Source: a virus. Taken from it: a stretch of 64,000 nucleotides of DNA. Below are positions 8,821 through 54,670 of this stretch, piece by piece. The notes under the pieces are model-generated. The model did no database searches, had not been told where the DNA came from, and saw nothing but the letters and a program-made list of their open reading frames with translations. The DNA lies in the IMG/VR virus record IMGVR_UViG_3300022699_000293, positions 23,131 to 87,130 of that record; one strand, written 5' to 3'. Numbering within the stretch: the first letter of the stretch is position 1; each line of letters opens with the position of its first letter. The translations under genes were made by a program, and so were the position numbers.

Positions 8821-8873
8821 GAAATTTACCTTACACTTTGTTGAAGGTTGGATGGTTACAGGAGAGTAAGTAC

Positions 8874-10613
8874 ATGGCAAACGAATTTAATACTAGCGAT
8901 CCCTACTTGTTTACAGGTCGTCGCAATGTAGCGCCACATAGTAATCCTTATCACAGCTATACACAAGTTTTTAGTCCAAGACGTTTAAAAGACTTGTTTA
9001 AATGGTGTGAGTTTTTATTTGCTAATTCTGCCCATATCTATGCTGCTTTGCGGAAATTTGGGGAATACCCTATTACTGAAATTTTATACGAAACAAATAA
9101 TGAAACACTTAAAACCAAACATAAAAATATTTTAGAAAAAATTATACACATTCGTGAATTGCTTATTGAAATGACCTTAGATAAATACGTGTATGGGAAT
9201 GCTTTTCTTTCCATGTACCAACCATTTATCCGCTTTTTAAAATGTACTAAATGTCAAACATTGACGAACATTCAAAATGTTAAATATGAGTATAATTACC
9301 AAGCAATGAAGTTCACGTATGAGTGTCCTGCGTGTCATAAAAAAGTCGTTGCTACAGAAAAACATATTATAGATCGAAAAGTTTCGGTTAGTCGCAAAAT
9401 TAATTTTATTCGATGGGATCCTAAAAAAATAGATATCGACCATAACCCCCTAACAGGAGCTTCAGTTTATTATTACAATATTCCAGAATCTGTAAAAGAA
9501 AGCGTAAAAAAAGGACATAAGTTTTTAATAGACAGTATGCCTTTAGGCTTTTTGAAAGCAATAAAAGAAAAACAACAATTCAGATTTGCTCCTGGATATA
9601 TTTTTCATATGAAGATAGGAGGTCCCGCAGGTATTAATCCGCAATGGGGACTGCCTCCGTTACTTTCGACATTACAATTGTTCCATTATACCGCTATTTT
9701 AAGAAAAGCTAACGAAGCTATTTCTCTGGATTATTTAACTCCTCTTCGTATTGTCCACCCAGCACCGCAAAGTGGTAACGCAGATCCTGTCACTACAATT
9801 AGTTTACAAGAGTGGCAACAAAACTTAAAAGGAAATATAAAGGATTGGAGACAAGATCCTTTACATATGATGTTTGCACCTGTTCCTGTAGGAATGACGC
9901 AAGTAGGGGGACAAGGACGAGCATTATTAACTTTAGGAGAAGTGCAAGAAGCGGAAAAAAATATTGTAGCCGCTTTAGGAATTCCTCTAGAATTTCTTTA
10001 CGGAGGCTTAACGCGAAGTGGTATGGAAGCTACTTTAAGATTAATAGAGAATCAATTAGAGACACACATTAGTGATTTGAATGACTGCATACAATGGATA
10101 TCTGATAATTGTGCTAAGTTTTTGGGTTATGATAAAGTTTCTATGGAATTAGCCCCGTTCCGGATGATCGACGACCAAACACAAAAGAATATTTCGTTAC
10201 AATTATACCAAGCAGGACACCAACTAGGTCGGAAAATAATTTCGGAAAAAACCATAGCAGAACAGAACAACTTGGATTTAGACAAAGAAGAAGATCGCAT
10301 CAAACAAGAAGAGCTGGATGCTGTGCGGCGTGATGCAGAATTGCAAATCGAGATAAGTAAGCTACAAAACAACATGGCAAATCGAATTAGGCAAGAAACC
10401 CAACAAAGCGAAATGGCTATGGGTGGTGGTGGTGCTCCTACAGGTTATAACCAACAACAAGTAATTGCACAAGCTGATCAACTTGTAGCACAATGGGCAC
10501 AAATGGAAGAAGGGAGACGTAAAAGTATGATGGATTCTTTAATGAAAGAAGACTTCGTGTTGTACTCTGTAGCTATGCAACGTTGGGAAGACTTTGAACA
10601 ACAACAACAATAA
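8874..10613 (+). CDS. Portal protein with internal zinc ribbon
   Basis: A 579-residue portal protein, the 12-mer at the capsid vertex through which DNA is packaged. It shows the portal core: the FKWCEFLFANSAHIYAALRK start, a DKYVYGNAFLS strand, and a C-terminal stem region with EVQEAEKNIVAALGIPLEFLYGG. It ends in a Gln-rich coiled tail. Residues about 122-160 contain a Cys4 ribbon (CTKC...CPAC) not usual in portals. The start at 8874 follows an AGGAGAG site, so the upstream in-frame TTG is rejected. No terminase gene is seen in the window. Confidence 0.87.
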   Translation: MANEFNTSDPYLFTGRRNVAPHSNPYHSYTQVFSPRRLKDLFKWCEFLFANSAHIYAALRKFGEYPITEILYETNNETLKTKHKNILEKIIHIRELLIEMTLDKYVYGNAFLSMYQPFIRFLKCTKCQTLTNIQNVKYEYNYQAMKFTYECPACHKKVVATEKHIIDRKVSVSRKINFIRWDPKKIDIDHNPLTGASVYYYNIPESVKESVKKGHKFLIDSMPLGFLKAIKEKQQFRFAPGYIFHMKIGGPAGINPQWGLPPLLSTLQLFHYTAILRKANEAISLDYLTPLRIVHPAPQSGNADPVTTISLQEWQQNLKGNIKDWRQDPLHMMFAPVPVGMTQVGGQGRALLTLGEVQEAEKNIVAALGIPLEFLYGGLTRSGMEATLRLIENQLETHISDLNDCIQWISDNCAKFLGYDKVSMELAPFRMIDDQTQKNISLQLYQAGHQLGRKIISEKTIAEQNNLDLDKEEDRIKQEELDAVRRDAELQIEISKLQNNMANRIRQETQQSEMAMGGGGAPTGYNQQQVIAQADQLVAQWAQMEEGRRKSMMDSLMKEDFVLYSVAMQRWEDFEQQQQ

Positions 10614-10633: not shown

Positions 10634-11203
10634 ATGGTTAAGGACACACGACAAGATTCAACTTTTGCAACTTTGGTTCAATCAGCAAGAGACAAACCTC
10701 CTCGCATGTCTCAAGAAACAGAGATTCCTTCTTTATTTTCGCCACCATCCGACGATTCTTCAAAAGATTCGTTTGTAGCTAAAGAATTAACAAACAATAA
10801 ACCTGGACGACAAATACGTCTTGTAAGTTTTACGCGTACTTTTGTATTGTGGCGTCCTTGGGAAAAATGTTCTCGATGTTTGGAAATGTTAAAACAGGGA
10901 GAAATAGAATTACCTTCAATAGGGGATATGACTTGCCCCCATGTACAGCTTGCGGAGTATAAAGAAATTAAAGATGCTGTTCTCAGAGGTGACGGTATTA
11001 AAGAATTTGAAGAATACTTTCAATTACATGACGGTACTCGATGTGTTCAATTTTCTTGGTTGGAAGCTGATCCAGAATTTTTAGAAAAAATGAAAAAAGA
11101 AGCTCAAAAAAACAAGGATAGCGTGTACCCACCAAACCCTGAAAAAGTTTTTAACCAAAAAGAGGAGGAGACTCCGAATAATGATTCTGAAGTCTCCTCC
11201 TGA
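10634..11203 (+). CDS. Hypothetical protein downstream of portal
   Basis: A 189-residue protein with several cysteines (CSRC, TCPH, TRC) that may bind zinc in its middle part, a Ser-rich N terminus and a Lys/Glu-rich C terminus. No family recognised. It lies 20 nt after the portal gene in the same direction. A 10-bp inverted repeat (11164-11173 with 11191-11200) overlaps its last codons. Confidence 0.75.
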   Translation: MVKDTRQDSTFATLVQSARDKPPRMSQETEIPSLFSPPSDDSSKDSFVAKELTNNKPGRQIRLVSFTRTFVLWRPWEKCSRCLEMLKQGEIELPSIGDMTCPHVQLAEYKEIKDAVLRGDGIKEFEEYFQLHDGTRCVQFSWLEADPEFLEKMKKEAQKNKDSVYPPNPEKVFNQKEEETPNNDSEVSS

Positions 11204-11396: not shown

Positions 11397-11404
11397 TATA
11401 CTTG
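11397..11404 (+). promoter_or_regulatory. Putative phage promoter (TATACTTG) of the RNA polymerase operon
   Basis: TATACTTG lies 22 nt before the ribosome site AGAAGGAG of the beta/beta-prime fusion gene. It is one of at least ten near-identical boxes placed just upstream of genes in the window. Confidence 0.6.
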
Positions 11405-11425
11405 AACCGTTCAGAAGGAGAGCAA

Positions 11426-14400
11426 ATGCCTAAGCTAACACCTTTGATGATAGGTCCAGATCAACGTAGAACTCTTATTCACGAAAAAGTGAAAGAGGGT
11501 TTGAATGAATCATTTCCTATACAGTCTCGGAATAAGACATTGGAAGTGAAAGATCTTCGCATAATAAATAAAGACTATACGCCGACAGAACAGAAACGCG
11601 CAATTCTTTCTGGAGATTCTCTCTTTGAATCTGTTAAAGGAACTGTAAGTATAAAAGATAAGAAGGGTAAAATTTTAGATGAAGCCAAAAACTTTACTTT
11701 AGTCCGAATTCCTTATTTTACTCCTCGACATACTTTTATCATTGGGGGTAACGAACATTCTGTTTCTAATATGGTACGTCGTAAACCGGGAGTTTATTCT
11801 CGTAAAAGAGCTAATGGTATTTTAGAGGCAGGGTTTAACACCATCGGAGGATCTAATTTTCGAGTAAGCATGGATCCTTCTAAAGGACAGCCACAATTAG
11901 AATACGGGTCGACTAAAATTCCATTATATCCTATTTTACGTAAATCTGGAATTTCTCACGACAATATAGCTAAAGCGTGGGGGTCTAAATTAGCAGATAT
12001 TAATGAAAAAGAACTATCTTCTAAAACAGACAGATATATTGATAAGTTATATAACAAAGAAATTCCTCCTTATTTTAGAGACGAAACAAAAACTTCTCAG
12101 GAAAAAATGGAGGATATTTTAACACGTTATAAAGATGCTAAAATGGATCCTGAAGTTAATCAAAAAACTTTAGGACGTCCTCACACGCATGTTACTCCTG
12201 ACAGTTTGCTGGACGCGTCTACTCGTGTATTGAAAATATTTAACAAAGAAGAAGACGTGGACGATCAAGATAATTTGGGCTTTAAAACATTAATGTCTGT
12301 TGATGATTTTTTTAAAGAGCGTATAAAATTACACGCTAGAAACGTTGCTAATAAAACAGCGATAAAAATGGAAAGAACCCCGCAACTTAAGAAAGCATTA
12401 CCTCCAGGCCCATTTACAAAAGATCTGTTACAATTTATTTCTACTTCCTCTTTGTCTTCAATTCCAGATCAAACTAACCCTGTGGATTTGATTGACTCAG
12501 CTATGAGAGTAACGTCTTTAGGTGAAGGTGGAATCTCAACTGAACGTGCTATTCCTATCGAAGCTCGACAAACCCATGTAACTCAAATGGGTGCTTTAGA
12601 TCCTATTAGAACACCAGAATCTAGTCGTGCCGGTATTGATGTAAGAGCTGCAGTAACAGCTCAACGAGATGAAAATGGAGATATCTACGTTCCTGTTTAC
12701 GACGTAAAAAGTCAACGAGAAAAATACATTAAAGCAGGTCACCTCCAGGACTCTGTTGTAGCTTTTGCGAACCAACCCTTGAAAGGGTCTGTTGAGGCTG
12801 TCGCACGAGGTGTTGTTCGTCGTGTACCTGCACGAGAAGTAGACTACCAAATACCGCACCAATCTCGTTTATACAGTGCTACAACAAACTTAATTCCTTT
12901 TTTGGAATCGGCACAAGGCAATCGAGCTGTAATGGGTTCGAAAATGCAAGTGCAAGCGTTATCCTTGGTTAATCGTGACGCTCCTTATGTTCAAGTTGCG
13001 ACGCCTTCACAAAAATCTTTCGAACGAATGATAGGTAAGATTGTTAATCCCCATTCTCCAGTATCAGGCACTGTTAAAAAAATAGATAATGATTACATTT
13101 ACGTGTTGCCCGACCAAGAAAAACAAGCCGCAATTAACAAAGCTATTAAAATTCCTTATGACAATAATTTTCCGTTAGCTACCAAAACATATTTAAATCA
13201 TGATTTGTTTGTCAAACCTGGAGATAAAGTTAAGAAGGGTCAAACTTTAGGTACTTCTAATTTTACTAAAAATGGGGTTTTGGCACTAGGTAAGAACATG
13301 AGTGTTGCTTACATGCCGTATTACGGAAAAAATTCTAATGATGCGGTAGTGATTAGCGACAAAGCAGCAAAAAACTTAACGTCTGAACGTATGTATAAAA
13401 TCGTAGTACCTCAAGAACCCAACTTAACTTTAAACCAAAACAAACATAAAACGTATTACGGGCATAGATATAAAAAGGATCAATATAGAAGGTTAGACAA
13501 AGATGGAGTAATCGAAGCAGGTACTAAATTAACTCCACACGACCCATTGGTGGTAGGTGTTCGAAAAACTGAATTATCTCCGGATGACTTAATACTAGGA
13601 CGATTGCATCGTTCTCTTGCAAACCCTTACAAAGAATTTAAACACGAGTGGGATCACGATTATGAAGGAGAAGTTGTAGATGTAGTCAAAACACCTAAAC
13701 GTGTAACCATGACAGTTAAAACACGAGAACCTGCACGAATAGGAGACAAGTTAAGTGGGCGTTTTGGGAATAAGGGGGTTGTTTCTGAAATCATTCCTCA
13801 AGATGAAATGGTTAAGGATGAGGCTGGAAAGCCTATTGATATTATTATGACTTCCGCTGGTGTTGTGTCACGAATTAATCCTAGCCAAATTATAGAAACA
13901 GCGGTAGGGAAAGTTGCTGAAAAAACAGGAAAACCAATTATTGTAGATAACTTTACTAGAAAAGATAATGTTAAATGGGCAAGAAAATTATTAAAAGAAC
14001 ATGATTTAAAAGATAAGGAAACTGTTTACGATCCAAAATCAGGAAAAAAAATTCCTAACATTATGGTAGGTCGTCAATATCTTTATAAGTTATCTAAATC
14101 TACTGATACAAATTATAGTGCTCGAAGTATGGGTACTTATGACATGAATATGCAACCAACTCGGGGAGGAATTCAAGGAGCTAAGGCTTTAGGCAAAATG
14201 GAATTCGATGCTTTGCTAGGTCATAATGCACGCAATATTTTAAGAGAAGCTGCTACAGTTAAAAGTCAAAAGAATGATGAATTTTGGCGTGCTATTCAAC
14301 TAGGTCAAATGCCTCCTACACCAAAATCTATTTTTGCTTACGATAAATTTCTCAACATGTTGAAAGGTGCAGGTGTTCGCGTAGACCGCGAAGGTAGTAA

Positions 14401-15787
14401 AATGTCTTTAGCCCCCCTTACGGACAAAGATGTTACTGAAATGTCTTCCGGTGAAATCAAAGATGCTAAGATAGTACGCGCCAAGGATTTACGTCCGGAA
14501 ACCGGAGGTTTGTTTGATCCGGGAATAACTGGAGGTTTACGAGGAACTCGCTGGTCTCATATTTCTTTGGCTGAACCTATAATTAACCCTGTATTTAAAG
14601 AACCTGTTAGGCGGTTACTAGATATGTCTAACGCACAATTGACAGATACGCTAAAAACTAAAGGAGGAAATCATATTAAAAAAGAATTGGGTAAGATTGA
14701 TTTGGATGCTAAAGAAAAAGAGCTTAAACGACAATTAAAGAAAAAGAATCCAAGTCAAGTAGATAATTCTTTAAAACAAATAAAATACATACGCGCATTA
14801 AAAAAATTAAATTTAAAACCTGATGAAGCGTATACAATGACGAAAGTACCCGTTGTTCCGCCGGTGATTCGTCCTGTAGTACCCGGTAAAGGTGGGACAC
14901 AACTTGTTTACGGTGATGCCAATCCTTTATACCAAGATTTGATTTATATTAATAATCAAATGAAAGAAATAAAGGATCCTAAAAATCCTACACCTCCGGG
15001 TGAAGAAGAAAAACTTAGACCTTCATTGCAACAAGCTGTAGGCGCAGTTTATGGGACTGATGAGCCCGCCACAGCAAAATCTCGAGGACGAAAGCATAAA
15101 GGTTTTTTAACTTATATCTCGGGAGAGGGAGGACCAAAGCATGGATTTTTTCAATCAAAGTTGATGTCTCGAGCTCAAGATATGGCTGGGAGAGGAACAA
15201 TTGTTCCTGACAGTACTTTGGGAGTAGATGAGATTGGCGTACCTGAAGAAATGCTATGGACGATGTACCGAGATTTTATCATCAGGGGCTTAGTTCAAAA
15301 AGGTTTTCCGGCTATCCAAGCTCGTCAAATGGTGGAAGACAAACATCCAGCTGCAAAAGATACGCTAAACCGAATTATTAAGGAACGTCCTGTATTAATG
15401 AACCGCGCACCTACGTTACACAGGTACAACATTGTAGGAGCTAAACCTGTACCTGTACCAGGACGTACATTACGAGTTAATCCTTTTATAGAAGCGCATA
15501 TGAATGCAGATTATGACGGAGATGCAATGACCCTACATGTTCCCATCTCGCCTGCTGCTGTTAAAGAAGCGGAGGATATTACGCTTTCTAAACTTTTATA
15601 CGGGGATAAAACCAAAAATGACTTATTAGTTTTCCCACAGCACGAAGCGATAATGGGGATACACCAAGCTAGTGGCGCGGACGATAAGAATACAATACCT
15701 AAAAAATTTAAAAATCAGGGTGAAGCAATAGCAGCTTACAAACGTGGAGAAATTGGACTAGGAACTCGGGTAACTATTGGAAATTAA
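11426..15787 (+). CDS. RNA polymerase beta subunit fused to N-terminal part of beta-prime
   Basis: A 1453-residue fusion carrying the active-site halves of a cellular-type RNA polymerase. Beta signatures are EEDVDDQDNLGFKTL near residue 280, QMGALDPIRTPES near 395, LIPFLESAQGNRAVMG near 490, PYYGKNSNDAVVISD near 635 and GDKLSGRFGNKGVVS near 773. Beta-prime begins in frame at about residue 990 (GEIKDAKIVRAKDLRPETGG, then GLFDPGITGG). It continues with VPPVIRPVVPGKGG and NRAPTLHRYN. The catalytic NADYDGD lies at residues 1360-1366, with Tyr for the usual Phe. The beta-prime zinc-binding cysteines are absent and the beta lobes are short. It ends about 90 residues after the catalytic motif; the rest of beta-prime is encoded two genes downstream. 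ATG 11426 has an AGAAGGAG site. Confidence 0.95.
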   Translation: MPKLTPLMIGPDQRRTLIHEKVKEGLNESFPIQSRNKTLEVKDLRIINKDYTPTEQKRAILSGDSLFESVKGTVSIKDKKGKILDEAKNFTLVRIPYFTPRHTFIIGGNEHSVSNMVRRKPGVYSRKRANGILEAGFNTIGGSNFRVSMDPSKGQPQLEYGSTKIPLYPILRKSGISHDNIAKAWGSKLADINEKELSSKTDRYIDKLYNKEIPPYFRDETKTSQEKMEDILTRYKDAKMDPEVNQKTLGRPHTHVTPDSLLDASTRVLKIFNKEEDVDDQDNLGFKTLMSVDDFFKERIKLHARNVANKTAIKMERTPQLKKALPPGPFTKDLLQFISTSSLSSIPDQTNPVDLIDSAMRVTSLGEGGISTERAIPIEARQTHVTQMGALDPIRTPESSRAGIDVRAAVTAQRDENGDIYVPVYDVKSQREKYIKAGHLQDSVVAFANQPLKGSVEAVARGVVRRVPAREVDYQIPHQSRLYSATTNLIPFLESAQGNRAVMGSKMQVQALSLVNRDAPYVQVATPSQKSFERMIGKIVNPHSPVSGTVKKIDNDYIYVLPDQEKQAAINKAIKIPYDNNFPLATKTYLNHDLFVKPGDKVKKGQTLGTSNFTKNGVLALGKNMSVAYMPYYGKNSNDAVVISDKAAKNLTSERMYKIVVPQEPNLTLNQNKHKTYYGHRYKKDQYRRLDKDGVIEAGTKLTPHDPLVVGVRKTELSPDDLILGRLHRSLANPYKEFKHEWDHDYEGEVVDVVKTPKRVTMTVKTREPARIGDKLSGRFGNKGVVSEIIPQDEMVKDEAGKPIDIIMTSAGVVSRINPSQIIETAVGKVAEKTGKPIIVDNFTRKDNVKWARKLLKEHDLKDKETVYDPKSGKKIPNIMVGRQYLYKLSKSTDTNYSARSMGTYDMNMQPTRGGIQGAKALGKMEFDALLGHNARNILREAATVKSQKNDEFWRAIQLGQMPPTPKSIFAYDKFLNMLKGAGVRVDREGSKMSLAPLTDKDVTEMSSGEIKDAKIVRAKDLRPETGGLFDPGITGGLRGTRWSHISLAEPIINPVFKEPVRRLLDMSNAQLTDTLKTKGGNHIKKELGKIDLDAKEKELKRQLKKKNPSQVDNSLKQIKYIRALKKLNLKPDEAYTMTKVPVVPPVIRPVVPGKGGTQLVYGDANPLYQDLIYINNQMKEIKDPKNPTPPGEEEKLRPSLQQAVGAVYGTDEPATAKSRGRKHKGFLTYISGEGGPKHGFFQSKLMSRAQDMAGRGTIVPDSTLGVDEIGVPEEMLWTMYRDFIIRGLVQKGFPAIQARQMVEDKHPAAKDTLNRIIKERPVLMNRAPTLHRYNIVGAKPVPVPGRTLRVNPFIEAHMNADYDGDAMTLHVPISPAAVKEAEDITLSKLLYGDKTKNDLLVFPQHEAIMGIHQASGADDKNTIPKKFKNQGEAIAAYKRGEIGLGTRVTIGN

Positions 15788-17377
15788 ATGACTCATTCTT
15801 CACCAGCGCAGCGTACTGCAGCCTGGGCTAATCGGAAATACCCAGATGTAGAAAACTTGAATACTGTTTTAGTAGATAGTCCAAGTACTAGCCTACGAAT
15901 GACAAAAAAAGATGTATTAGATTATTATACAACACCAGAGGTGCAACGTAACTTGTTGCCCCAATTACGTCAAAAAGATTTAATTGCCTTAGTTGCTAGA
16001 GATCCTAACAATCCAATAATCAGAAGGTATCGTAGAAGAAAGGAACCTGTCCGCATATCTGATAAAAAAGACTTAGATTGGTATGCCAAGCGCAGATATG
16101 TTGAATTTCACCCAACGTTAAAATCCAAATCTAAAGAGTTGTGGGTAGACTTGGATGCGGGTAAGAATGTAGGTATCGACGAAATAAAACCTGCAGTTAA
16201 AGATGTACAAAAAGCTGTTTCTAAAATCCCCAACATTAAAAAAACGGACATAACATTTTCTGGTGGTCGAGGTTTTCATGTTCGAGGAGAGTTAAATAAA
16301 GAACAAAGAACAAGTTCCTTAGAAAAAGTTATCAAACGCGTTATGGCTCGTTTGGCACGACGAAATAAACGTTACACTACACGCCCTCCCAAAACCAATG
16401 AAATTCGTCTTGACACTTCTACGTTTCACGAACGAGGTTCAATACGCGCTCCTTTTTCACTTAATCAAAAAACAGGATTAGTTTCAGTTCCTGTAAAAAA
16501 TAATCATTTAAAATCTTTTGATCCTATTGCTCATGCTAACCCTTGGGCAGTGATTGCTGAATTACGACGTAAAAAGAAAACTTCGCGTGAATTTGCTCCA
16601 GGCATTCCCGAAAATAGAGCTATTAAATCTTTACCTAGCTTTAAACAACCTAAATCGTGGATTATGTCTGTTCAAGAGCATGACGCAAAAAAAGCAGGAA
16701 AACATTACGATTTACGTTTAGTGGATCCTTGGAGTGACTACGCTCACTCTTGGGCAATCCCTAAAAGTAAACTACCTCGAGCAGGAGAAAAACCTGTTCT
16801 AGCAATCCAAACTCCTACACATACATCGAACTATGCATTAACCTTTGGAGCTAAAAAACCTGAGCATATTGCCAAGGGCTACGGAGCAGGCACAGTACAA
16901 ATAAAACATAAGGAACCTGTACAATTAACTTCTTCTCCAGATTTTATTAAATTCAAAAGACAAAAAGGTCGTGGCCAAGAAGAAAATTTTGTGCTATTCC
17001 GAACTAAAGGAGATTCTTGGTTATTACGTAATGTGACAAAATCGGGAACAGTAAAGGAAGCTGTAATGAGTTCTTTATATTGGAATGGATTTGAAGAAAC
17101 GCTACAAAAATTAGGTATGTCTAATGAAGTGCGTGCGGCTATAAAACAACGTGGTCAATCGGAAAATATGCAACAATCTTTAGAAACAGAAGATCAAGGA
17201 TTACCTTCTGCGGCTTTAGCTAAACAACTACAGAAATTACCTGTACCTGAAATTGTACACAAAAATAAAGGACAAGATAGCGTTGAAAATAGACTAAATA
17301 GATCTGTATCTTGGGGACCTAAACAAGAAATTTCACATGAAGTTGCTACGGGACCTTCCCCGATAATGGGAATTTAA
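15788..17377 (+). CDS. Primase-polymerase (AEP) fused to LigD-type 3'-phosphoesterase
   Basis: A 529-residue two-domain enzyme. The N-terminal half is an archaeo-eukaryotic primase/LigD-Pol-like domain: metal-binding VDLDAG near residue 119, FSGGRGFHV near 158, LDTSTF near 208 and RGSIRAPFSLNQKTGL near 216. The C-terminal half matches the LigD 3'-phosphoesterase: VQEHDA, KHYDLRL, TPTHTSNYA and GYGAGTV keep the metal-binding His/His/Asp and the later His. There is no ligase domain and no Ku-like neighbour. The likely chemistry is nucleotide addition or primer synthesis plus removal of 3'-phosphate or 3'-ribonucleotide ends. It is wedged between the two parts of the RNA polymerase, starting at the base after the first gene's stop and ending one base before the next start, so it is certainly co-transcribed. 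Confidence 0.85.
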   Translation: MTHSSPAQRTAAWANRKYPDVENLNTVLVDSPSTSLRMTKKDVLDYYTTPEVQRNLLPQLRQKDLIALVARDPNNPIIRRYRRRKEPVRISDKKDLDWYAKRRYVEFHPTLKSKSKELWVDLDAGKNVGIDEIKPAVKDVQKAVSKIPNIKKTDITFSGGRGFHVRGELNKEQRTSSLEKVIKRVMARLARRNKRYTTRPPKTNEIRLDTSTFHERGSIRAPFSLNQKTGLVSVPVKNNHLKSFDPIAHANPWAVIAELRRKKKTSREFAPGIPENRAIKSLPSFKQPKSWIMSVQEHDAKKAGKHYDLRLVDPWSDYAHSWAIPKSKLPRAGEKPVLAIQTPTHTSNYALTFGAKKPEHIAKGYGAGTVQIKHKEPVQLTSSPDFIKFKRQKGRGQEENFVLFRTKGDSWLLRNVTKSGTVKEAVMSSLYWNGFEETLQKLGMSNEVRAAIKQRGQSENMQQSLETEDQGLPSAALAKQLQKLPVPEIVHKNKGQDSVENRLNRSVSWGPKQEISHEVATGPSPIMGI

Positions 17378-17378: not shown

Positions 17379-19175
17379 ATGACTACACAAACTTTTGGGC
17401 GATACTTACTTAACCAACATATTCCTAAAGATTATCAATTGTCGGGAGAATCTGGGAAAAAAGAATTACGTACCAAAATGAACGCATTGGCAAAAAAAGA
17501 TCCGGTGGCTTATGTGAAAACAATTACAGATCTTAAGCGTGAAGGTGATTTCTTAGCTACAATGTCGGGACTTTCTGTGGGCTTGGATGATATTTCACCG
17601 GCACCGACACGCGATGAAGTATTGAAACCTTTGGTATCTGCTTTTAATCGCGCACAAACAGATAAACAAAGACGGCGTATTGCCGAACAAGCACAGGAAA
17701 AATTACTCAGTACTGTATCCAAACATCCAGGATCCATGACACAACAAGTAAAAAGTGGGGCTCGAGGAAAACCTGTACAGTATATGAAAATTGTCGCATC
17801 TCCTGCTGCAGCTAGAGATTCTTACGGATATACAGAACCTTGGTTGATTACTCGGTCATATGCCGAAGGTTTACGCCCTTCTGATTATTGGGTTGCGGGT
17901 AACGAAGCTATCTTAGACACTATCAAAAGCACTGTTTCAGTGTCTGAACCAGGGGAATTGACTAAAGTCCTTATGAGTAATATGGCAGATACGCTTGTAA
18001 TTGAAATTGATTGCGGCACACATAATGGTATTTCCTTAAATGTTAGTGACTCTAATATTTTAGACAGGTACTTGGCTCGAGATACCGGACGCTTTAAGCG
18101 TAATACTTTAATTACATCACAAGTACAAACGGCTTTAAAAAAAGCAGGAAAACAAAAAATCCTGGTACGTTCTCCTATGACTTGTGAGTCTGATGATGGA
18201 GTTTGTCAGAAATGCCAAGGGTTGGATGAGAAAGGTAATCCTCAAGAATTGGGTGTGAACGTTGGTGTGCGTGCAGCTTCTGCGTTAGGGGAACCTTTAA
18301 GTCAATTTGCCTTGGATGCTAAGCACGGAGTACGTACGGCTAAAGGAGATCGTGCTAGATTGCAAGGAGTTTCTGGCTTTCGTCAAATAATAGAATCGCC
18401 ACAACAATTTTTAAACAAAGCAACTCTTGCGGAACACGGCGGGAATGTAGATAAGATTGAAACTGCTCCTCAGGGAGGTCATTTCGTATACGTGAATGCT
18501 AAAAAACATTTTGTACCTCCTAATTTACAAGTAACAGCAAAAAAGGGGGATTCCATAGAACCAGGAGATTCTCTTAGTGAAGGCATTCCCAAACCTGATG
18601 AAATAGTTCGTTACAAAGGACTCGGTGCAGGACGGCAGTATCTTGTAAATACTTTGCGTGATTTGTATGCTAATCAAGGACGAGACTTAGATCAGAGACA
18701 TTTTGAATTATTAGCAAAGAACGAATTGAACCATGTGCGCGTTTTAGAAGATCCAGGTAACAATTTTTTAAAAGGAGACGTGGTATCTTATAATGCTCTT
18801 CGATCTACATTAGCTAAACAATCAAAAGAAATACCTATTAACGAGTCGTTAGGGCAAGTATTAGGAAAACCTTACTTTCATTTTTCTGTAGGTCAGCGTA
18901 TTACTCCAGCAGTTCTTCACTATTTAAAGAAAGAAGGTTTGAAATCTGTACTCATTGCTTCAAAAGCACCTAATGTAGAATTTATTATGAAACCTGCAAC
19001 ACGCGCACCCTTGTTAAACCCTGATTGGATGGCTCGATTAGGTCACAGGTACTTAAAAACAACTCTAAAGGAAGCTGCTCATTTTGGGGATATTTCTAAT
19101 TTACAAGGTACCCACCCTGTTCCTGCTTACGCTGCTGGCGTAAACTTTGGTCAGGGAAAACAAGGACGCTATTAG
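17379..19175 (+). CDS. RNA polymerase beta-prime C-terminal part (RpoC2-like)
   Basis: A 598-residue chain completing beta-prime. It begins in the funnel/rim region (FLATMSGLSVGLDDI), then QVKSGARGKPVQYMKI near residue 126, a diverged bridge helix, and DTLVIEIDCGTHNGI near 212. The zinc site follows at CESDDGVCQKC near 269, the trigger-loop lead GEPLSQFALDAKH near 304, and the C-terminal YLVNTLRDLY and clamp-type motifs. In E. coli numbering Arg933 aligns with Asp here while His936 is kept. The cut with the first RNAP gene falls close to the cyanobacterial rpoC1/rpoC2 boundary, but the chain is far shorter than cyanobacterial RpoC2, so the large trigger-loop insertion is absent. It must assemble with the 11426 product. 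Confidence 0.93.
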   Translation: MTTQTFGRYLLNQHIPKDYQLSGESGKKELRTKMNALAKKDPVAYVKTITDLKREGDFLATMSGLSVGLDDISPAPTRDEVLKPLVSAFNRAQTDKQRRRIAEQAQEKLLSTVSKHPGSMTQQVKSGARGKPVQYMKIVASPAAARDSYGYTEPWLITRSYAEGLRPSDYWVAGNEAILDTIKSTVSVSEPGELTKVLMSNMADTLVIEIDCGTHNGISLNVSDSNILDRYLARDTGRFKRNTLITSQVQTALKKAGKQKILVRSPMTCESDDGVCQKCQGLDEKGNPQELGVNVGVRAASALGEPLSQFALDAKHGVRTAKGDRARLQGVSGFRQIIESPQQFLNKATLAEHGGNVDKIETAPQGGHFVYVNAKKHFVPPNLQVTAKKGDSIEPGDSLSEGIPKPDEIVRYKGLGAGRQYLVNTLRDLYANQGRDLDQRHFELLAKNELNHVRVLEDPGNNFLKGDVVSYNALRSTLAKQSKEIPINESLGQVLGKPYFHFSVGQRITPAVLHYLKKEGLKSVLIASKAPNVEFIMKPATRAPLLNPDWMARLGHRYLKTTLKEAAHFGDISNLQGTHPVPAYAAGVNFGQGKQGRY

Positions 19176-19182
19176 GAATAAA

Positions 19183-19686
19183 ATGGATTACGATTTTTAT
19201 AAGTTAGGATGGGATGCAGCACTTGTAGACTTAGGCTTATGTAAAGAAGCTGCGTGGCCTAAAAGTTTAGCACGTGTGGGGAAATTTTTAAAAAGTAAGG
19301 TTCCTTCTAAAGCAGGTGTAAAAAAATTTTTTATAGGCAGTCCTAGACGTTTTATGCATGAATTTCGCAGTAAAAAATTATTGCAACCTGGAAGTACTTT
19401 GCGTGAGGGTTACAGAGCACGCAGTCCTCTGGAAAAAGCGCTGCTTTACGGTTTTCCATTGTACGAGGGAGGCCGTATTTTAACAGGAGACCCTGGACAA
19501 AGAGCTGAAAATATAGGAGGATTGCTGGGAGGTATGACTCTTGGTTTGGGTGCGTGGGGGCCTTCAGGTATGTTAGGCTCCATAGCTGCAGGTAGCTTGG
19601 GAGACTATTTAGGAAGAGGACTTGCCCGAACAGCTAAACATTCTTTGGGAGTAACCCCCGACGTAACGAATATATACAAAAAATAA
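19183..19686 (+). CDS. Small glycine-zipper protein
   Basis: A 167-residue protein beginning MDYDFYKLGWDAALVDLGL, an N-terminal helix type seen in several genes here. It is followed by a basic stretch and a Gly/Leu-rich hydrophobic segment (about residues 105-150) likely to insert in membranes. ATG 19183 lies 7 nt after the RNAP stop. Probably a virion or ejection protein by context. Function unknown. Confidence 0.7.
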   Translation: MDYDFYKLGWDAALVDLGLCKEAAWPKSLARVGKFLKSKVPSKAGVKKFFIGSPRRFMHEFRSKKLLQPGSTLREGYRARSPLEKALLYGFPLYEGGRILTGDPGQRAENIGGLLGGMTLGLGAWGPSGMLGSIAAGSLGDYLGRGLARTAKHSLGVTPDVTNIYKK

Positions 19687-19718
19687 AATTAAATCTTGGT
19701 AATTTTCACCGAATGCCA

Positions 19719-19726
19719 TATACTTG
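19719..19726 (+). promoter_or_regulatory. Putative phage promoter (TATACTTG)
   Basis: TATACTTG sits 27 nt before ATG 19753, with GGAGG between. It matches the recurrent box of this genome. Confidence 0.55.
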
Positions 19727-19752
19727 GCGTGAACACTTTGGAGGTAAATAAA

Positions 19753-20196
19753 ATGGATACAGCAACAGCTAACGCATTAATCAAAGCCGCTTATGCCGAA
19801 GGCGTGAAACAAGCATTAACTGAGCGTGGATTAGACGAAAAAACAGCGTCTATTCGAAGTGAAGTGTTTACAGAAGAAAAATTTGCCGGTATTGCAGATG
19901 TCGGACAAGCTATTCGAAGCGGTCTTGGTCGCGCTGGGCAAGCTGTAGGCGGGGCTGCTAGCCGTGCTGGGCAAGCTGTAGGCGGGGCTGCTAGCCGTGC
20001 TGGGCAAGCTGTAGGCGGGGCTGCTAGGTCTGCAAAAGAAACCGCAAGCATCCCTATTGAAAATTTGAAGCTTCTACGTGAAACCAATCCGGAAGCCTTT
20101 AATGCTCTTATGGGTGGTGGTATCATCGGTGGTGGTGCAGGTTTAGGTGCTGGAATTGGTGGGACGTTGGGTACTCAAGCTCTTTTAGAAGATTGA
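19753..20196 (+). CDS. Alanine/glycine-rich repeat protein
   Basis: A 147-residue protein. The N-terminal helix (NALIKAAYAEGVKQALTERG) resembles that of the gene at 40054. The centre has three copies of RAGQAVGGAAS. The C terminus is a Gly-zipper segment (about 115-140). This suggests a membrane-interacting or pore-forming virion protein. GGAGG precedes ATG 19753; the longer reading from 19696 has no ribosome site. Confidence 0.7.
   Translation: MDTATANALIKAAYAEGVKQALTERGLDEKTASIRSEVFTEEKFAGIADVGQAIRSGLGRAGQAVGGAASRAGQAVGGAASRAGQAVGGAARSAKETASIPIENLKLLRETNPEAFNALMGGGIIGGGAGLGAGIGGTLGTQALLED
19930..20028 (+). repeat. Three 33-bp tandem repeats
   Basis: Three nearly identical 33-nt units, differing only at synonymous or terminal positions, encode RAGQAVGGAAS three times. 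The near-identity at third positions suggests recent expansion, and the copy number may vary between relatives. Confidence 0.9.
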
Positions 20197-21330: not shown

Positions 21331-23946
21331 ATGCCTATGATTACGCCCCAAGCACAACAGGGTATTCCAGCTGCGCCTGCAGCAGAACAAGCTGAGCAGA
21401 TGCTTAAAGAGCGTTTTTCACAAACAGCTTATAGTGTACTGTTCTCTAAATTTCCTGATCTGGCGCAAAATGTTGTGACTTTCAAAATTTTGGAAACTGA
21501 CGGAGAAAAAGGTAATGGGGTAGGGGCATTCATAATTTTACAGGATCAACTTCCCTTTTATATTCCTGTTGTTTTGGTGGATGGGCAACTGAAACCGTTA
21601 GAAATGTTTTATTATAAGCCTTTAAATATTTTCTTGCCTTTAAACAAAAAATGGATTGACGAAATTGGAAAGATGACTCTTGAAGAAATGGGAGAATCTG
21701 AGAACGCACCGGATGTTGTACCGAAAGATATGAGTGTGCGTAATTTAGTTTTACCTCCAATGACGACAGGGAGGTTTGGGTACGCGAGTGTTTCTGAAGA
21801 AAATTTAGAACACGGTGTAAATTCAATGATCAAAGCAGCGGAAGATCATTCCTTGGATACCCATCCCCAATTTTTAAATATTCTTCAAGAAGGAAATCGT
21901 TTATTACTAGATGGCGTAAAAATAGCTTTTGAGCAACATCCTCAATTGTTGCAAAAATTAGCTTCTGTTTACGGTGTAAAAGAATTAATACAAGCATTTA
22001 ATAAAGGATACGCCAAAGCAGAACAAACAGAAAAGATTGCAGAAAAACACGAACCTGAAAACCCTGCTTTAAAAGTACTTACGATAGACGCGTCTCCAGA
22101 AGAGTTACAAGAATCTTTTGGGGATTCAGCGAAGATTGCTTTTCAAAATATTTTAAAACATGGTTACGATGCTGCTGATAACCGAGATAAAAATGATCTG
22201 AACCGTGTCGTAAAAGTAGAAGGAGAACGTTTTCTACAGGAACCAGGACCTGAAGGAGGCTGGTACCGTCTTTATTTTGTGGATACGAATCCTGAAATTT
22301 ACTACGTAATTCCCTGGCCTGTAGAATGTACAGGAGAAACAGGATTTGTAGAAAATTCAAAACAAAGACCTATAAAATATCTTGCGATACGTAAAGATAC
22401 ACAAATAGCCTTTGTCGTATCTCAATTGATGGGCGAGCCTGTACACTTAATGGATAAAACAATTACGAAATCTCCTCTGTACAAAATTTTGACAGAAACT
22501 TCAAAAAACTCTACTAAACCTAAACCAGATGTTTACGGATGTTTTATAGTACCTTGTGACAAAGGTGCTCAGGCTACGGCTCCTACATGGATAGAACAAG
22601 CTATTTCCGACAATGGAAAACAACGTTACATTTCAGCATATGGAGATGTTACATATATCCTTGATGACGATCCTACACGAAAATATATACAAAGAGTACC
22701 ACCGGCAACGGAAGACAGGTATACAGATTTAATATTTCTTCCAGCAAATGCTAAATGGATTCCTTTAGGATCTTTTTCTAGAGATACAAAAGCTCCTGAA
22801 CTAAAGTATGAACGTAAGCGAAAAGTTGAAAGTAAGCAACGAAGACATTCTATCATTCGGGATCCTCGTTTAGTAACTCGCTGGTTAGATGCTAAATTAC
22901 AAAAAGAAGGTGCTCAAGTTATTAATGTTCGAAGTGATGGTTCTAGTTTCTGGAGAATAGAAGATGATTCCCTATCATATCCTTTTAAAAATGCTTTGGA
23001 GAAAGTAGCTTTACAATACCATATAAGTGTACCCGAAGCCGAAGAAGTCTTAAAAGAAGCTCAACAGTATGGGCGTGCTCCCGTGCGTTTAGTTAAAGGT
23101 GGTAATGTATTGGAAAATTTTTTTGAAAACATTGGCAAAGAAGCACAAGCACCAATGCCTATAGCTACCCAACAAATGCAACAAATACCTGCTGGAACTA
23201 TGCCACCGGGTGGGATGTTACCTCCTGCAGGAGGTCAACAGCAGCAACCAGCTGTAGACCCAACAGATTTAGCTATTACAGAAGCTATACAAAATCTACA
23301 ACAACAAAACCAATTGCAAACGCAAGAAATGCAAGCACAGGCTGAACAATTACAGCAAGCTACACAGCAACAAGCACAACAAACACAGCAGTTAGTTGGT
23401 GTTTTACAAGGGATACAACAAAGGTCAGCAGAGATCGGACAAGCTACAGGCGGAATGATTCCTCCAGAAGCTATGGAAGCTCCTGCAGCTGCTGCTGAAA
23501 TGTTAGCACCTACTCCACCTCCAGAGAGCGTACCTCCGCCAATGCCGATAATGGATGAAGACACTGAATCGGTTACACCCGAAATGGTGGCGCAACAAAT
23601 TAATCCATTTTTAGTTGATCAAGCTGAAGAGTTACAAGATAACCAAATATTCGATACAGCTGCCATCTCCATGTTGGCAACGTCGCCAATTTTACAAAAC
23701 ATTGTTTCTATTTATGTTCCTAATATGGAAAAATGTTTAGATAATTTAGGAAGAGTTTTACTAACTCTATGGCTAACTGAGGAAGAAACTAAAAAAGCTA
23801 TAGGTGATGAGGCATTTATTTCTTTAGAAGATAAATTACGAGCTGTATTCAAATCTTTAGGAGACATAATTATTAACTTGAGTCAAAACGCAATTAGTAC
23901 TAGCCCTGAAATGCAAGCACAGCAAGGGCCTGCTACTGGGGTATAA
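21331..23946 (+). CDS. Large virion-associated hypothetical protein
   Basis: An 871-residue protein. The N-terminal 570 residues look globular and mixed alpha/beta (FYIPVVLVDGQLKPLEMFYYKPLNIF). A Gln/Pro/Met-rich linker at about 600-740 holds repeated QQ and PP runs. The last 130 residues are helical. I recognise no family. Its size, position between RNAP and capsid genes and strong ribosome site suggest an abundant structural or internal head protein. Confidence 0.75.
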   Translation: MPMITPQAQQGIPAAPAAEQAEQMLKERFSQTAYSVLFSKFPDLAQNVVTFKILETDGEKGNGVGAFIILQDQLPFYIPVVLVDGQLKPLEMFYYKPLNIFLPLNKKWIDEIGKMTLEEMGESENAPDVVPKDMSVRNLVLPPMTTGRFGYASVSEENLEHGVNSMIKAAEDHSLDTHPQFLNILQEGNRLLLDGVKIAFEQHPQLLQKLASVYGVKELIQAFNKGYAKAEQTEKIAEKHEPENPALKVLTIDASPEELQESFGDSAKIAFQNILKHGYDAADNRDKNDLNRVVKVEGERFLQEPGPEGGWYRLYFVDTNPEIYYVIPWPVECTGETGFVENSKQRPIKYLAIRKDTQIAFVVSQLMGEPVHLMDKTITKSPLYKILTETSKNSTKPKPDVYGCFIVPCDKGAQATAPTWIEQAISDNGKQRYISAYGDVTYILDDDPTRKYIQRVPPATEDRYTDLIFLPANAKWIPLGSFSRDTKAPELKYERKRKVESKQRRHSIIRDPRLVTRWLDAKLQKEGAQVINVRSDGSSFWRIEDDSLSYPFKNALEKVALQYHISVPEAEEVLKEAQQYGRAPVRLVKGGNVLENFFENIGKEAQAPMPIATQQMQQIPAGTMPPGGMLPPAGGQQQQPAVDPTDLAITEAIQNLQQQNQLQTQEMQAQAEQLQQATQQQAQQTQQLVGVLQGIQQRSAEIGQATGGMIPPEAMEAPAAAAEMLAPTPPPESVPPPMPIMDEDTESVTPEMVAQQINPFLVDQAEELQDNQIFDTAAISMLATSPILQNIVSIYVPNMEKCLDNLGRVLLTLWLTEEETKKAIGDEAFISLEDKLRAVFKSLGDIIINLSQNAISTSPEMQAQQGPATGV

Positions 23947-51264: not shown

Positions 51265-51348
51265 GCCGGGATGGCGGAATTGGTAGACGTGAGGGACTTA
51301 AAATCCCTTGGGCAATTACCCGTGCGGGTTCGATTCCCGCTCCCGGTA
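51265..51348 (+). tRNA. tRNA-Leu(TAA)
   Basis: Acceptor GCCGGGA pairs with TCCCGGT. The anticodon loop CTTAAAA carries TAA, a long variable arm is present, and the T arm is GCGGGTTCGATTCCCGC. The 3' CCA is not encoded. Confidence 0.93.
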
Positions 51349-51357
51349 TTGTCATAT

Positions 51358-51431
51358 TGCAGGGTGGAGCAATTCGGTAGCTCGCCAGGTTCATACCCTG
51401 GAAGTTGCGGGTTCAAATCCCGTCCCTGCTA
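51358..51431 (+). tRNA. tRNA-Met(CAT), initiator-like
   Basis: D arm GAGC/GCTC with an A11-T24 pair, anticodon arm CCAGG-TTCATAC-CCTGG, T arm GCGGG-TTCAAAT-CCCGT. The first acceptor pair would be T1-T72, a mismatch, as expected of bacterial initiators; the other six pairs form. The three G-C pairs of a classical initiator anticodon stem are reduced to two. Confidence 0.88.
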
Positions 51432-51664
51432 ATGTTCGTTGGCAGCGAACTAGTCATGGTAGGGAGACTCTAAAGATCAGGAATGCTAATTCCTTGCCCC
51501 CCCCCTACCCAGCTACTAGAGCTGAAATTTTCACTGAGTATTCTAGTCCCTGCTCAGTGTGCTGCTACAAATAAATAATAAAGTAAGCATATTCCCATCT
51601 TTCCCAAACTGTTTCTTTAACTCGCAGTATGTTACGTACTGCAGAAAAATCCTAGGAGGAAATC

Positions 51665-52309
51665 ATGACACAACAACAGAAAACAACTTTAGCAGAACTC
51701 CTACTCCGGAGAAAGGAATTGAACGTTCTGTATAACACGCGGGCGTTCGCCGTATCCAATCTTCGGGATCAATTGCGTAGGAGGCAAGTCTCCGACGAAG
51801 TGGACCAGTTGGAGGGACAAGTGTCCCTTGTAGATCCCGAAGAGCTGGAAAAGGAGACCAACTACTACGCACATCAGCGCCGGTTATCAGACAGCGTGGT
51901 CCAACAAGCCAATTGGACAACAACGCTTGAGGTGCCTCAAGCGTTGATGGATGACGAAAACACGGACGGAACCATGTCCTGCAAGCTGGCAGAACTCCTC
52001 GTGCGTCGCAAGGAACTCGACAGCGCGACACATTCGCGGAGCGTCGATCTGGGAGTCGTGGGACCTTACGTCGAGCAAAACGGCGTCTGGAAGCAAGTCA
52101 ACGAAAGAATCCCCGTGGAGAAGGGACTAAGCGAACTCTACCAGAAAGTAGAAAGGAAAGGACCGTCCCAGATCAGGGCGTTCATGCTGGTAGACACGTG
52201 CCAGAAGAAACTGCGTCTTCTGGACACCTACATCCAGAAGACAAACTGGGACACCGTGGTGGAGGTGCCCGCCACGGTCTTCGAGCCCTACCAACCTCAG
52301 AACTTGTAA
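51665..52309 (+). CDS. Two-repeat helical protein, DIP1984-like
   Basis: A 214-residue protein made of two related halves. LAELLLRRKELN... ending NWTTTLEVPQAL is mirrored by LAELLVRRKELD... ending NWDTVVEVPATV. The pattern (LAELLxRRxEL near the start, helical hairpin, xTNW near the end) resembles the DIP1984 family, whose function is unknown. Base composition is markedly richer in GC than neighbouring genes, suggesting recent transfer. AGGAGG precedes the ATG. It lies inside the tRNA cluster. Confidence 0.75.
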   Translation: MTQQQKTTLAELLLRRKELNVLYNTRAFAVSNLRDQLRRRQVSDEVDQLEGQVSLVDPEELEKETNYYAHQRRLSDSVVQQANWTTTLEVPQALMDDENTDGTMSCKLAELLVRRKELDSATHSRSVDLGVVGPYVEQNGVWKQVNERIPVEKGLSELYQKVERKGPSQIRAFMLVDTCQKKLRLLDTYIQKTNWDTVVEVPATVFEPYQPQNL

Positions 52310-52318
52310 ACTTTTCTG

Positions 52319-52382
52319 ATGTGACTCAAGTTGCCTGTAGTGGTTTTCTCGAGAAAGCTCACTGCAGGCAACTTGCTCACAT
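52319..52382 (+). terminator. Long hairpin after the DIP1984-like gene
   Basis: Nested helices ATGTG/CACAT, CAAGTTGCCTG/CAGGCAACTTG and AGTG/CACT lead to a TTCTCGAGAA cap. The 11-bp middle helix is perfect. No T-run follows. It may be an RNA processing or protection element at the gene's end. Confidence 0.5.
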
Positions 52383-52674
52383 GGAGCAAGCGTAGCGTAC
52401 AGGATAAGGGGTTTGCACAGCACCCCGCCCCAAGCTGTAGTGTTGCTGGTAACACGTTGCATTCAGGAACATGATAAAGATGTTCATCATACGAATTTTG
52501 AGACTGCGTGAATTCCGATTGACCGACTGACCTTTTCTAGTTGTTAGTACTTACATTGAAACTCGCAACCAGATACCTCCAGAACATCCGATTGGAACCG
52601 AAAAATTGAACTTCCGCGCATACCCGATTACCCGAATTCCGAATTACCATATCCTGGGACGCTTGTTCCTTTTT
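52383..52674. other. Non-coding gap before tRNA-Gln
   Basis: No convincing gene is seen. There is a small hairpin GGGGTTTGCACAGCACCCC near 52408 and another (GTGTT/AACAC) near 52440. The rest shows no recognised element. Confidence 0.5.
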
Positions 52675-52745
52675 TGGGGTGTCGACAAGTGGCAAGTCGC
52701 AAGGTTTTGGTCCTTGTATCGCAGGTTCGAATCCTGCCACCCCAG
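52675..52745 (+). tRNA. tRNA-Gln(TTG)
   Basis: Acceptor TGGGGTG pairs perfectly with CACCCCA. The anticodon loop TTTTGGT gives TTG. T arm GCAGG-TTCGAAT-CCTGC. No CCA encoded. Confidence 0.93.
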
Positions 52746-52748
52746 CTG

Positions 52749-52817
52749 GTATGCTCTACGTAGCTTAGGTTTTCTTTGCTATTTTCCTTTCTCCTTCCTA
52801 GGCTACGTAGAGTATAC
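52749..52817 (+). repeat. 21-bp inverted repeat between two tRNAs
   Basis: 52749-52769 and 52797-52817 pair along all 21 positions (two as G-T), around a T-rich 27-nt loop. The hairpin fills the whole gap between tRNA-Gln and tRNA-Glu, so it is a likely processing signal in the tRNA precursor. Confidence 0.8.
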
Positions 52818-52891
52818 GGCCCCGTCGTCTAACTGGTTAGGACATTGGCCTTTCACGCCAAAGACTGCGGGTTCAAATCCCGCCGGGGTCG
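52818..52891 (+). tRNA. tRNA-Glu(TTC)
   Basis: Acceptor GGCCCCG pairs with CGGGGTC. The anticodon loop CTTTCAC gives TTC. T arm GCGGG-TTCAAAT-CCCGC. Confidence 0.93.
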
Positions 52892-52984
52892 CAGACCACG
52901 TTTTTCACAAGGGAATCCAAGTACTCTAACAAACAGTTAGAAGAAAGGGCAGTATTCTCTTCTGGACGTATCCCAGTACGTACA

Positions 52985-53208
52985 GTGACAGAAAAACTAG
53001 CACAAAGATGCCGTTCGCTTTGTGTGAAGGTCTTTAATAGCCGTAACGGCACGGCTACGGAGTGAGAAACTCAAGGAAAGTCTTTAGAAACTCTGCGGAA
53101 GTTTCTAAAGTAAGCTGCTAGGAAGCATGTGTCAGCCTAAGCAGTAAAGCAAGTACGCAGATATTTGAGCGCGACGCCGGTAGCGACGACACAACCGGCA
53201 CTTTTTCT
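52985..53208 (+). ncRNA. Candidate structured non-coding RNA
   Basis: A gene-free stretch in the tRNA cluster with five successive helices. These are CACAAAG/CTTTGTG (53001-53024), TAGCCGT/ACGGCTA (53038-53057), CTTTAGAAACT/AGTTTCTAAAG (53082-53110), CTGCTAGG/CCTAAGCAG (53115-53144) and GCCGGT/ACCGGC (53176-53199). The last is followed by TTTTT, a Rho-independent end. It matches no RNA class I know by motif; order and sequence argue against RNase P RNA and group I introns. Confidence 0.45.
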
Positions 53209-53257
53209 CTTTTCTAAATCAAGTAAAATATACCTTTGGTTTAATTAAAGAACATTC

Positions 53258-53326
53258 GTATACTTCGATTAGGCAGCAGATTGTGTAGGTTTGTTCCCCC
53301 GCTTCCTATTCAGTTTGCTGCCTTTT
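53258..53326 (+). promoter_or_regulatory. TATACTTC box and 12-bp hairpin ahead of tRNA-Ser
   Basis: TATACTTC (53258-53265) is followed by GGCAGCAGATTG (53272-53283), which pairs along its length with CAGTTTGCTGCC (53311-53322, two G-T pairs), then TTTT. It could be a promoter with an attenuator-like leader for tRNA-Ser. Confidence 0.4.
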
Positions 53327-53337
53327 AGTATCTTTTA

Positions 53338-53421
53338 GGAAGCGTGGCCGAGTTGGTTTAAGGCGGCGGTTTTGAAAACCGTTGAACTAACGTTCCGTGG
53401 GTTCGAATCCTACCGCTTCCG
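53338..53421 (+). tRNA. tRNA-Ser(TGA)
   Basis: Acceptor GGAAGCG pairs with CGCTTCC. The anticodon loop TTTGAAA gives TGA. A long variable arm and T arm around TTCGAAT are present. Confidence 0.93.
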
Positions 53422-53484
53422 TCAATTTTTTTGGTAAAGATAATTTTTCGATAATTTTTAATTGTAGTAAGTTTACGCATATCG

Positions 53485-53492
53485 TATACTTG
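53485..53492 (+). promoter_or_regulatory. Putative phage promoter (TATACTTG) with near-leaderless gene
   Basis: CGTATACTTGGAGGT runs straight into ATG 53498. The box overlaps the only ribosome-site-like bases, so the message would be nearly leaderless. Confidence 0.5.
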
Positions 53493-53497
53493 GAGGT

Positions 53498-53914: not shown

Positions 53915-53941
53915 TCTAATCTTCTCAAATAGTTTTTTCTA

Positions 53942-54015
53942 CGGGGCATAGCGCAGTCTGGTAGCGCGCCAGCTTTGGGAGCTGGATGTCGTAAGTTCGA
54001 ATCTTACTGCCCCGA
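53942..54015 (+). tRNA. tRNA-Pro(TGG)
   Basis: Acceptor CGGGGCA pairs with TGCCCCG. Anticodon arm CCAGC-TTTGGGA-GCTGG. The T loop is TTCGAAT. Confidence 0.93.
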
Positions 54016-54066
54016 CAAAAAACAAATGACCGAAAATCTTGTTAAACACAAAGGAGTTTAAAATTC

Positions 54067-54309: not shown

Positions 54310-54323
54310 ACGGAGGTGTTTTT

Positions 54324-54656: not shown

Positions 54657-54670
54657 GTAATAATCTTTGA

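Follow-up and report, generated by a model that had tools for sequence, protein, structure and literature searches.

In the window, that is, the whole stretch of 64,000 nucleotides of viral DNA analyzed here, the gene between the two RNA polymerase (RNAP) ORFs encodes a LigD-type primase-polymerase domain (Pol) fused to a 3′-phosphoesterase domain (PE), without a ligase domain and followed by a C-terminal tail that is homologous to a small protein of the RNAP cassette. The features of this Pol-PE gene and of its neighbors are summarized in Table 1, where the position between the RNAP ORFs is called the slot. Both domains were already known; what is new is a viral, ligase-less Pol-PE fusion carried on a protein of the RNAP cassette. 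In the open-access papers searched, no viral Pol-PE lacking a ligase, located in an RNAP cassette and joined to a cassette protein was found described. The main text of the paper on IMG/VR phages with multisubunit RNAP, which likely belong to the same broad group as the Pol-PE phages, mentions neither primase, ligase, LigD, nor virion.

Table 1. Pol-PE gene, its domains, and neighboring genes of the late cluster (window coordinates)
Feature	Position	Strand	Basis or remark
Pol-PE gene, 529 aa: LigD-type primase-polymerase, 3′-phosphoesterase, C-terminal slot-protein tail	15788..17377	+	Start codon ATG
Pol (AEP) domain, residues 36-262: H108, motif I D121/D123, motif II S158...H164, motif III D209, R220	15893..16573	+	Pfam; hhalign 96.2%; Foldseek; 24 homologues
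3′-Phosphoesterase domain, residues 288-418: Q296, H298, H306, D308, R310, S321, H345, Y349	16649..17041	+	Pfam; hhalign 97.8%; PDB 3p4h/3p43; 24/24 homologues
C-terminal tail, residues 424-529, starting with the tag YWNGFEETLQKLG	17057..17374	+	Homologous to the stand-alone ~100-aa slot protein of sister phages (tail HMM)
RNAP ORF 1: fusion of beta and the N-terminal half of beta′; carries NADYDGD	11402..15787	+	Pfam Rpb2_6 1.2e-49, Rpb1_2 4.9e-25, Rpb1_1 1.4e-14; 35% to Arash Gp206
RNAP ORF 2: C-terminal half of beta′ (beta′-C)	17379..19175	+	Pfam Rpb1_5 9.5e-16; 31% to Arash Gp216
Portal protein, same late gene cluster as Pol-PE	8838..10613	+	30% over 555 aa to Arash portal Gp204
Conserved 189-aa protein 5′ of RNAP ORF 1	10634..11203	+	Position common to most relatives examined
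Conserved protein 3′ of RNAP ORF 2; FYxxGWxxALxxLGL tag near the N-terminus resembles the Pol-PE tail	19147..19686	+	Relatives' loci; tag scan
Late protein, partial similarity to Arash virion protein Gp218	21331..23946	+	E 6.8e-13

Pfam searches assigned residues 80-262 to LigD_Prim-Pol (3.1e-15) and residues 296-373 to LigD_N, the PE family (5.6e-8), both above the curated cut-offs, and identified no ligase domain in the 529 aa. The best NCBIfam model was that of mycobacterial-type LigD (PRK09632/NF007210), with both domains covered. An initial annotation of this DNA had named three AEP motifs (VDLDAG, residues 120-125; SGGRGFHV, 158-165; RGSIRAPFS, 216-224) and three PE motifs (QEHDA, 296-300; HYDLRL, 306-311; GYGAGTV, 364-370) as well as the lack of a ligase domain; all six motifs are in place, the lack of a ligase agrees with Pfam, and the HMM search and the structure prediction of the protein alone, both proposed there as checks, support the assignment. 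With hhalign, LigDs from plasmids aligned to residues 15-242 through their Pol domain (E 2.5e-9) and to residues 293-419 through their PE domain (E 1.1e-12). An AF2 model of the core (residues 36-420) built on 21 diverse alignment rows had a pLDDT of 92.9, against 36 with a shallow alignment of six rows and three distinct sequences. Foldseek returned the Pol domain of Mycobacterium tuberculosis LigD as the top PDB match (3pky, E 5.7e-12), with Prim-PolC and then the archaeal NHEJ polymerase next in rank; archaeal PE structures were matched as well, and the viral structure library gave only weaker matches, which were AEP-type or without name. Since hhalign, AF2, and Foldseek agree with Pfam, the domain match is not due to chance, and by both its model quality and its LigD Pol match the protein has an AEP fold. 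As in DNA ligase D, Pol and PE lie in a single chain; an ATP-dependent ligase domain was detected neither in the 529 aa nor elsewhere in the Pol-PE records searched, most of which are fragments.

In the PE domain of LigD (Pseudomonas aeruginosa numbering), H42, H48, and D50 bind the metal, R52, H84, and Y88 are needed, and Q40 and S61 lie in the site (PMC8656161). The corresponding residues of Pol-PE are H298, H306, and D308 (metal ligands), R310, H345, and Y349 (phosphate and transition-state residues), and Q296 and S321; all eight are intact and invariant in the 24 distinct homologues described below. In the Pol domain, motif I (hhhDhD/E; WVDLD with D121/D123), motif III (hD/E; RLD209), S158, and R220 are likewise invariant in 24 of 24, and the region of motif III is PriS-like (SIRAPFSLN..TGLVSVPV). 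The same holds for H108, which hhalign aligns with the histidine of the LigD EFH/ELH motif and which, from this alignment, we take to be the histidine tied to ribonucleotide preference in a LigD review (PMC8656161). Motif II is defined as sxH and is needed in characterized AEPs (PMC4538821). Its histidine is found in 11 of the homologues, including that of the window (GFH164), and is replaced by tyrosine in the remaining 13, both forms occurring inside the single Pol-PE clade; polymerase activity may be changed in the 13. For close pairs with estimable dS, dN/dS was 0.03-0.09 in both Pol and PE, Tyr-variant pairs included, which indicates purifying selection on both domains. Because the Tyr types keep the metal ligands and also show the low dN/dS, catalysis by their Pol domain is probably altered but retained.

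The Pol-PE ORF begins at 15788, directly after the stop of RNAP ORF 1 at 15787 (0 b), and its end at 17377 is separated by 1 b from the start of RNAP ORF 2 at 17379, so that the abutment reported in the initial annotation is exact in coordinates and frame. The gene also lies between two RNAP halves as stated there, but the flanks are not simply beta and beta′: the first is a fusion of beta with beta′-N and the second is beta′-C. Salmonella phage Arash and Vibrio phages D69 and D181 have the same fusion and separate beta′-C, as well as a similar gene order around the portal, SNF2 helicase, and head genes. Arash and the window contig are mostly collinear over a stretch that runs from PolA by way of the sigma factor, SNF2 helicase, and portal to the RNAP and head genes. 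Unlike the window phage, the genomes of Arash, D69, and D181 were found on searching to contain neither Pol-PE nor PE anywhere. An insertion splitting an intact beta′ was rejected, since Arash, D69, and many phages with adjacent RNAP ORFs and no Pol-PE have the split too. In Arash virions, the orthologue of RNAP ORF 1, Gp206, was the most detected protein (3516 spectra), and the orthologue of RNAP ORF 2 (Gp216, 1210 spectra), the helicase Gp217 encoded beside the RNAP ORFs (1148 spectra), and Gp218 were also detected by mass spectrometry; its authors considered that abundant enzymes were perhaps mere carry-over into the virion preparations (PMC10585845). Scans for sigma-70 promoters and terminators did not rise above shuffles.

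Some further features of these genomes were observed. The window encodes a sigma-70 region 2 protein with double zinc-ribbon matches (1331-2359), presumably a phage sigma factor, and a cluster of 13 tRNA genes (51265-59947). In D69 and D181 (L002:12001-19052 and L003) the split RNAP is annotated as "hypothetical protein", and RNAP ORF 1 of D181 is interrupted by a homing endonuclease. RNAP ORF 1 of L005 (14111-15694), L036, L042, and L043 contains an insertion of ~1.3-1.6 kb at or close to the active-site region with NADYDGD; the L005 insertion keeps the reading frame and matches LAGLIDADG_3 (intein-like), and in L043 a second one lies near residue 785.

With an HMM of the tail (residues 424-529), 30,687 ORFs of viral loci were searched. 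Outside the Pol-PE loci, all matches with E <0.01 for which both RNAP genes were in view lay between those genes, most of them in an ORF of ~100 aa ending 45-70 bases 5′ of the beta′-C match. Such ORFs were matched in L178 (2.5e-8) and L177 (1.2e-5), and also in L205, L187, L175, L089, and L170, while a short extra match was seen in L007, in a small ORF directly 3′ of RNAP ORF 1. As these matches are confined to the RNAP slot, Pol-PE has, judged by homology, become fused to the cassette's own protein, and the homology of its tail to a stand-alone slot protein of sister phages without Pol is new here. The tag at the start of the tail, (F/Y)xxGYxxALxKLG, also occurs near the N-terminus of the protein after RNAP ORF 2 and in small slot ORFs; it is a weak motif, the loose pattern giving 36 matches where eight were expected, and a scan of Arash, D69, and D181 gave no match. 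Small late proteins with the tag were seen at window positions 19147-19686 and 19696-20196 and at L005:16001-16683 and L007:6409-6744.

A scan with a mixed alignment of Pol-PE and LigD sequences recovered the family; single-protein and within-family scans returned close kin only, or nothing. In total, 24 distinct full-length homologues were identified in IMG/VR, every one of them located between the RNAP genes in the surveyed loci, so the absence from this position in all relatives that the initial annotation had named as counting against it did not occur. In 21 of the 22 listed loci, the stop codon of Pol-PE and the start codon of beta′-C overlap or almost touch. In a beta′-C tree (84 rows, quick method), Pol-PE is restricted to one clade with a support of 100 and is present in 25 of its 26 rows. 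The sole exception, L156, holds other slot cargo and retains the tail; its slot (L156:3280-9000) is enlarged with an SNF2-like helicase and further ORFs, and the catalytic domains of Pol-PE are lost. The Pol-PE phages are all metagenomic and mostly known from fragment records. A PE-domain query found no match in 50,697 phage records and matched 495 plasmid records, and tblastn of the Pol-PE protein returned nothing from plasmids at E 0.01. A published search for NHEJ parts in ~3,000 actinobacteriophages found none (PMC7719229).

Several sister phages carry predicted PE-ligase fusions in or near the slot in place of Pol-PE, which is also new here. In L175, L187, and L205 the slot is occupied by a fusion of PE with a domain of the ATP-ligase type (motif KxDG), while in L204 and L206 the PE-ligase lies slightly 3′ of beta′-C; PE-ligase fusions at both positions point to end joining. 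In L134, a PE-SNF2 helicase fusion is located between the RNAP ORFs (14379-17212, minus strand), beside a divergent DNA-ligase-like ORF on the other strand. A PE beside the RNAP is seen in several separate RNAP lineages, and elsewhere in IMG/VR we identified PE-ligase in L047 and L050 and PE alone in L049 and L051. The slot cargo of relatives is varied and includes PE-ligase, small virion-like proteins, HNH-like ORFs, and an SNF2 helicase. Two unusual architectures were observed in addition: a 939-aa slot protein with PE, ligase, DUF4269, and peptidase C39 domains (L187:4258-7077), and PE fused to a family X DNA polymerase (PolX: HHH, palm, thumb) on a 235-kb viral contig (L048:7986-9113).

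A complete NHEJ system was set aside because it is not seen in the Pol-PE records searched, most of which are fragments. In these records, we found neither Ku (records up to 170 kb) nor an ATP ligase or a member of the divergent slot-ligase family (records including those of 144-179 kb), nor an NAD ligase in the subset searched for it. The window contig encodes PolA and a 1136-aa DnaG-type primase, the latter on the other strand. Of the 14 Pol-PE records searched, 10 contained a DnaG-type primase gene; the four that did not are short contigs (18-48 kb). A replicative primase was rejected as the main reading of Pol-PE because PolA and a DnaG-type protein are encoded on the window contig; with a DnaG-type gene in the same genome, Pol-PE would not be the sole replicative primase of its replicon, as is expected of PriS. 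Other genes seen, in L012, were a class II ribonucleotide reductase (L012:692-3322, minus strand) and a PolA with 3′-5′ exonuclease and a weak UDG-like N-terminal match (L012:15960-18980, minus strand).

Among known systems, the phage protein shares with bacterial LigD of the mycobacterial order (Pol-PE-Lig) the sequence of Pol then PE, the PE site, and the Pol metal ligands. It differs from LigD in having no ligase domain, a phage-specific tail, ~26% identity to a Rhodococcus LigD over Pol-PE, tyrosine in motif II in about half of the homologues, and a PriS-like motif III; nor was the Ku of the LigD system found in the Pol-PE records searched. The stand-alone NHEJ polymerase and phosphoesterase of archaea (Methanocella paludicola 5dmu and 5dmp; 3p4h and 3p43) have the same two folds without a fused ligase, but they are separate proteins, whereas the phage domains are fused and lie inside an RNAP cassette. 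Pol and PE also occur as separate co-operonic domains in many species (PMC4538821). Prim-PolC of Mycobacterium smegmatis (6sa0, 5op0), the second structural match, is a gap-filling AEP, an activity also predicted for the phage Pol; unlike Pol-PE it has no PE, is cellular, and partners LigC. A precedent for the use of NHEJ parts by phages is provided by mycobacteriophages Omega and Corndog (cited in PMC7719229), which bring Ku and borrow the LigD of the host, whereas here the phage brings Pol-PE and Ku was not found.

The reading we prefer, and to which we give an even chance, is that Pol-PE is a LigD-like enzyme for 3′ ends and gaps that is tethered to the virion-RNAP cassette, is probably packaged, and conditions DNA ends for a host ligase. 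A LigD-family enzyme with two end-processing activities would thus be joined to a small protein that belongs to the cassette. LigD Pol extends primer ends with ribonucleotides preferred, and LigD PE trims away 3′ ribonucleotides and 3′ phosphates, which leaves a ligatable end (PMC8656161). By homology, the phage Pol domain would fill gaps by nucleotide addition, preferentially of ribonucleotides, and PE would remove excess 3′ ribonucleotides and 3′-phosphates, giving 3′ ends that a host ligase could seal. The tail may link Pol-PE to the RNAP complex or to a packaging route into the capsid. The gene sits in the late portal-RNAP-head cluster, and Pol-PE would be made late, packaged, and injected together with the polymerase, whereupon it could heal nicks, gaps, and blocked 3′ ends of the incoming genome. 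Its packaging is suggested by analogy, the virion data being those of the RNAP orthologues of Arash, a phage without Pol-PE.

The initial annotation had considered a functional link with the RNAP, either as repair of 3′ ends made by the polymerase or as supply of primers from it. A link to the cassette is supported beyond adjacency by the tail homology to the slot protein and the conserved stop/start overlap with beta′-C; of its two forms, primer supply appears disfavored and repair of polymerase-made ends is one option among several. That Pol-PE is a primase starting phage DNA replication, or supplies primers from RNAP transcripts, would fit its membership of the AEP superfamily and the resemblance of its motif III region to eukaryotic PriS. 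We nevertheless regard this as very improbable, since DnaG-type primase genes are present in these phages and PolA on the window contig, so that no priming role is needed; moreover, the best matches are the LigD Pol and Prim-PolC repair enzymes, and the neighbors are portal and head genes, not replication genes. It is unlikely that Pol-PE acts in transcription, whether by editing or extending RNA 3′ ends in the RNA:DNA hybrids that the phage RNAP makes or by coupling repair to this RNAP during elongation. Such a role would suit the conserved tight coupling with the beta′-C gene, the fusion to a cassette-specific protein, and the ribonucleotide preference of LigD Pol together with the 3′-ribonucleotide removal by LigD PE (PMC8656161), but contact with the RNAP is a supposition, the late gene cluster is equally compatible with packaging, and pairing of the same PE with a DNA-ligase-type domain in sister phages points to DNA. 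Because sister phages fuse this PE to a ligase, processing of DNA ends and gaps for a ligase fits better than repair of RNAP-made 3′ ends.

We also doubt that only PE works, with Pol serving as a nucleic-acid-binding scaffold in a protein that heals or unblocks 3′ ends of DNA or RNA. The PE site is invariant in all homologues whereas the motif II histidine is replaced in more than half, and sister phages have PE without Pol; against this, D121, D123, D209, S158, and R220 are invariant, dN/dS is as low in Pol as in PE even among Tyr variants, and histidine and tyrosine within one clade look like tolerance, not decay. Pol-PE could, finally, be an ordinary repair gene in a permissive slot of the late operon, its RNAP neighborhood having no functional meaning. 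The varied slot cargo of relatives speaks for this, but we think it improbable in view of the retention of Pol-PE in the slot throughout its clade save one row, its fusion to the slot's own protein, and the recurrence of PE beside RNAP in separate RNAP lineages.

Extending the preferred reading of a tethered enzyme for DNA ends and gaps, we propose tentatively, and with some doubt, that the split virion RNAP carries a packaged gap-filling and 3′-healing module into the cell on an adaptor native to the cassette, that repair of the incoming genome would be coupled to its first transcription, and that in related lineages a ligase takes the place of the polymerase on the PE core. This Pol/ligase swap on one PE core, and the tyrosine at an AEP-essential residue in 13 of 24 homologues, are biochemistry that is open to testing. 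LigD-type end-processing enzymes are unexpected in phages, yet they recur beside a multisubunit RNAP whose orthologue occurs in virions. This raises the question whether virions import their own DNA-end repair with the polymerase that starts infection, and suggests that in large uncultured phages a repair tool travels with the transcription machine.
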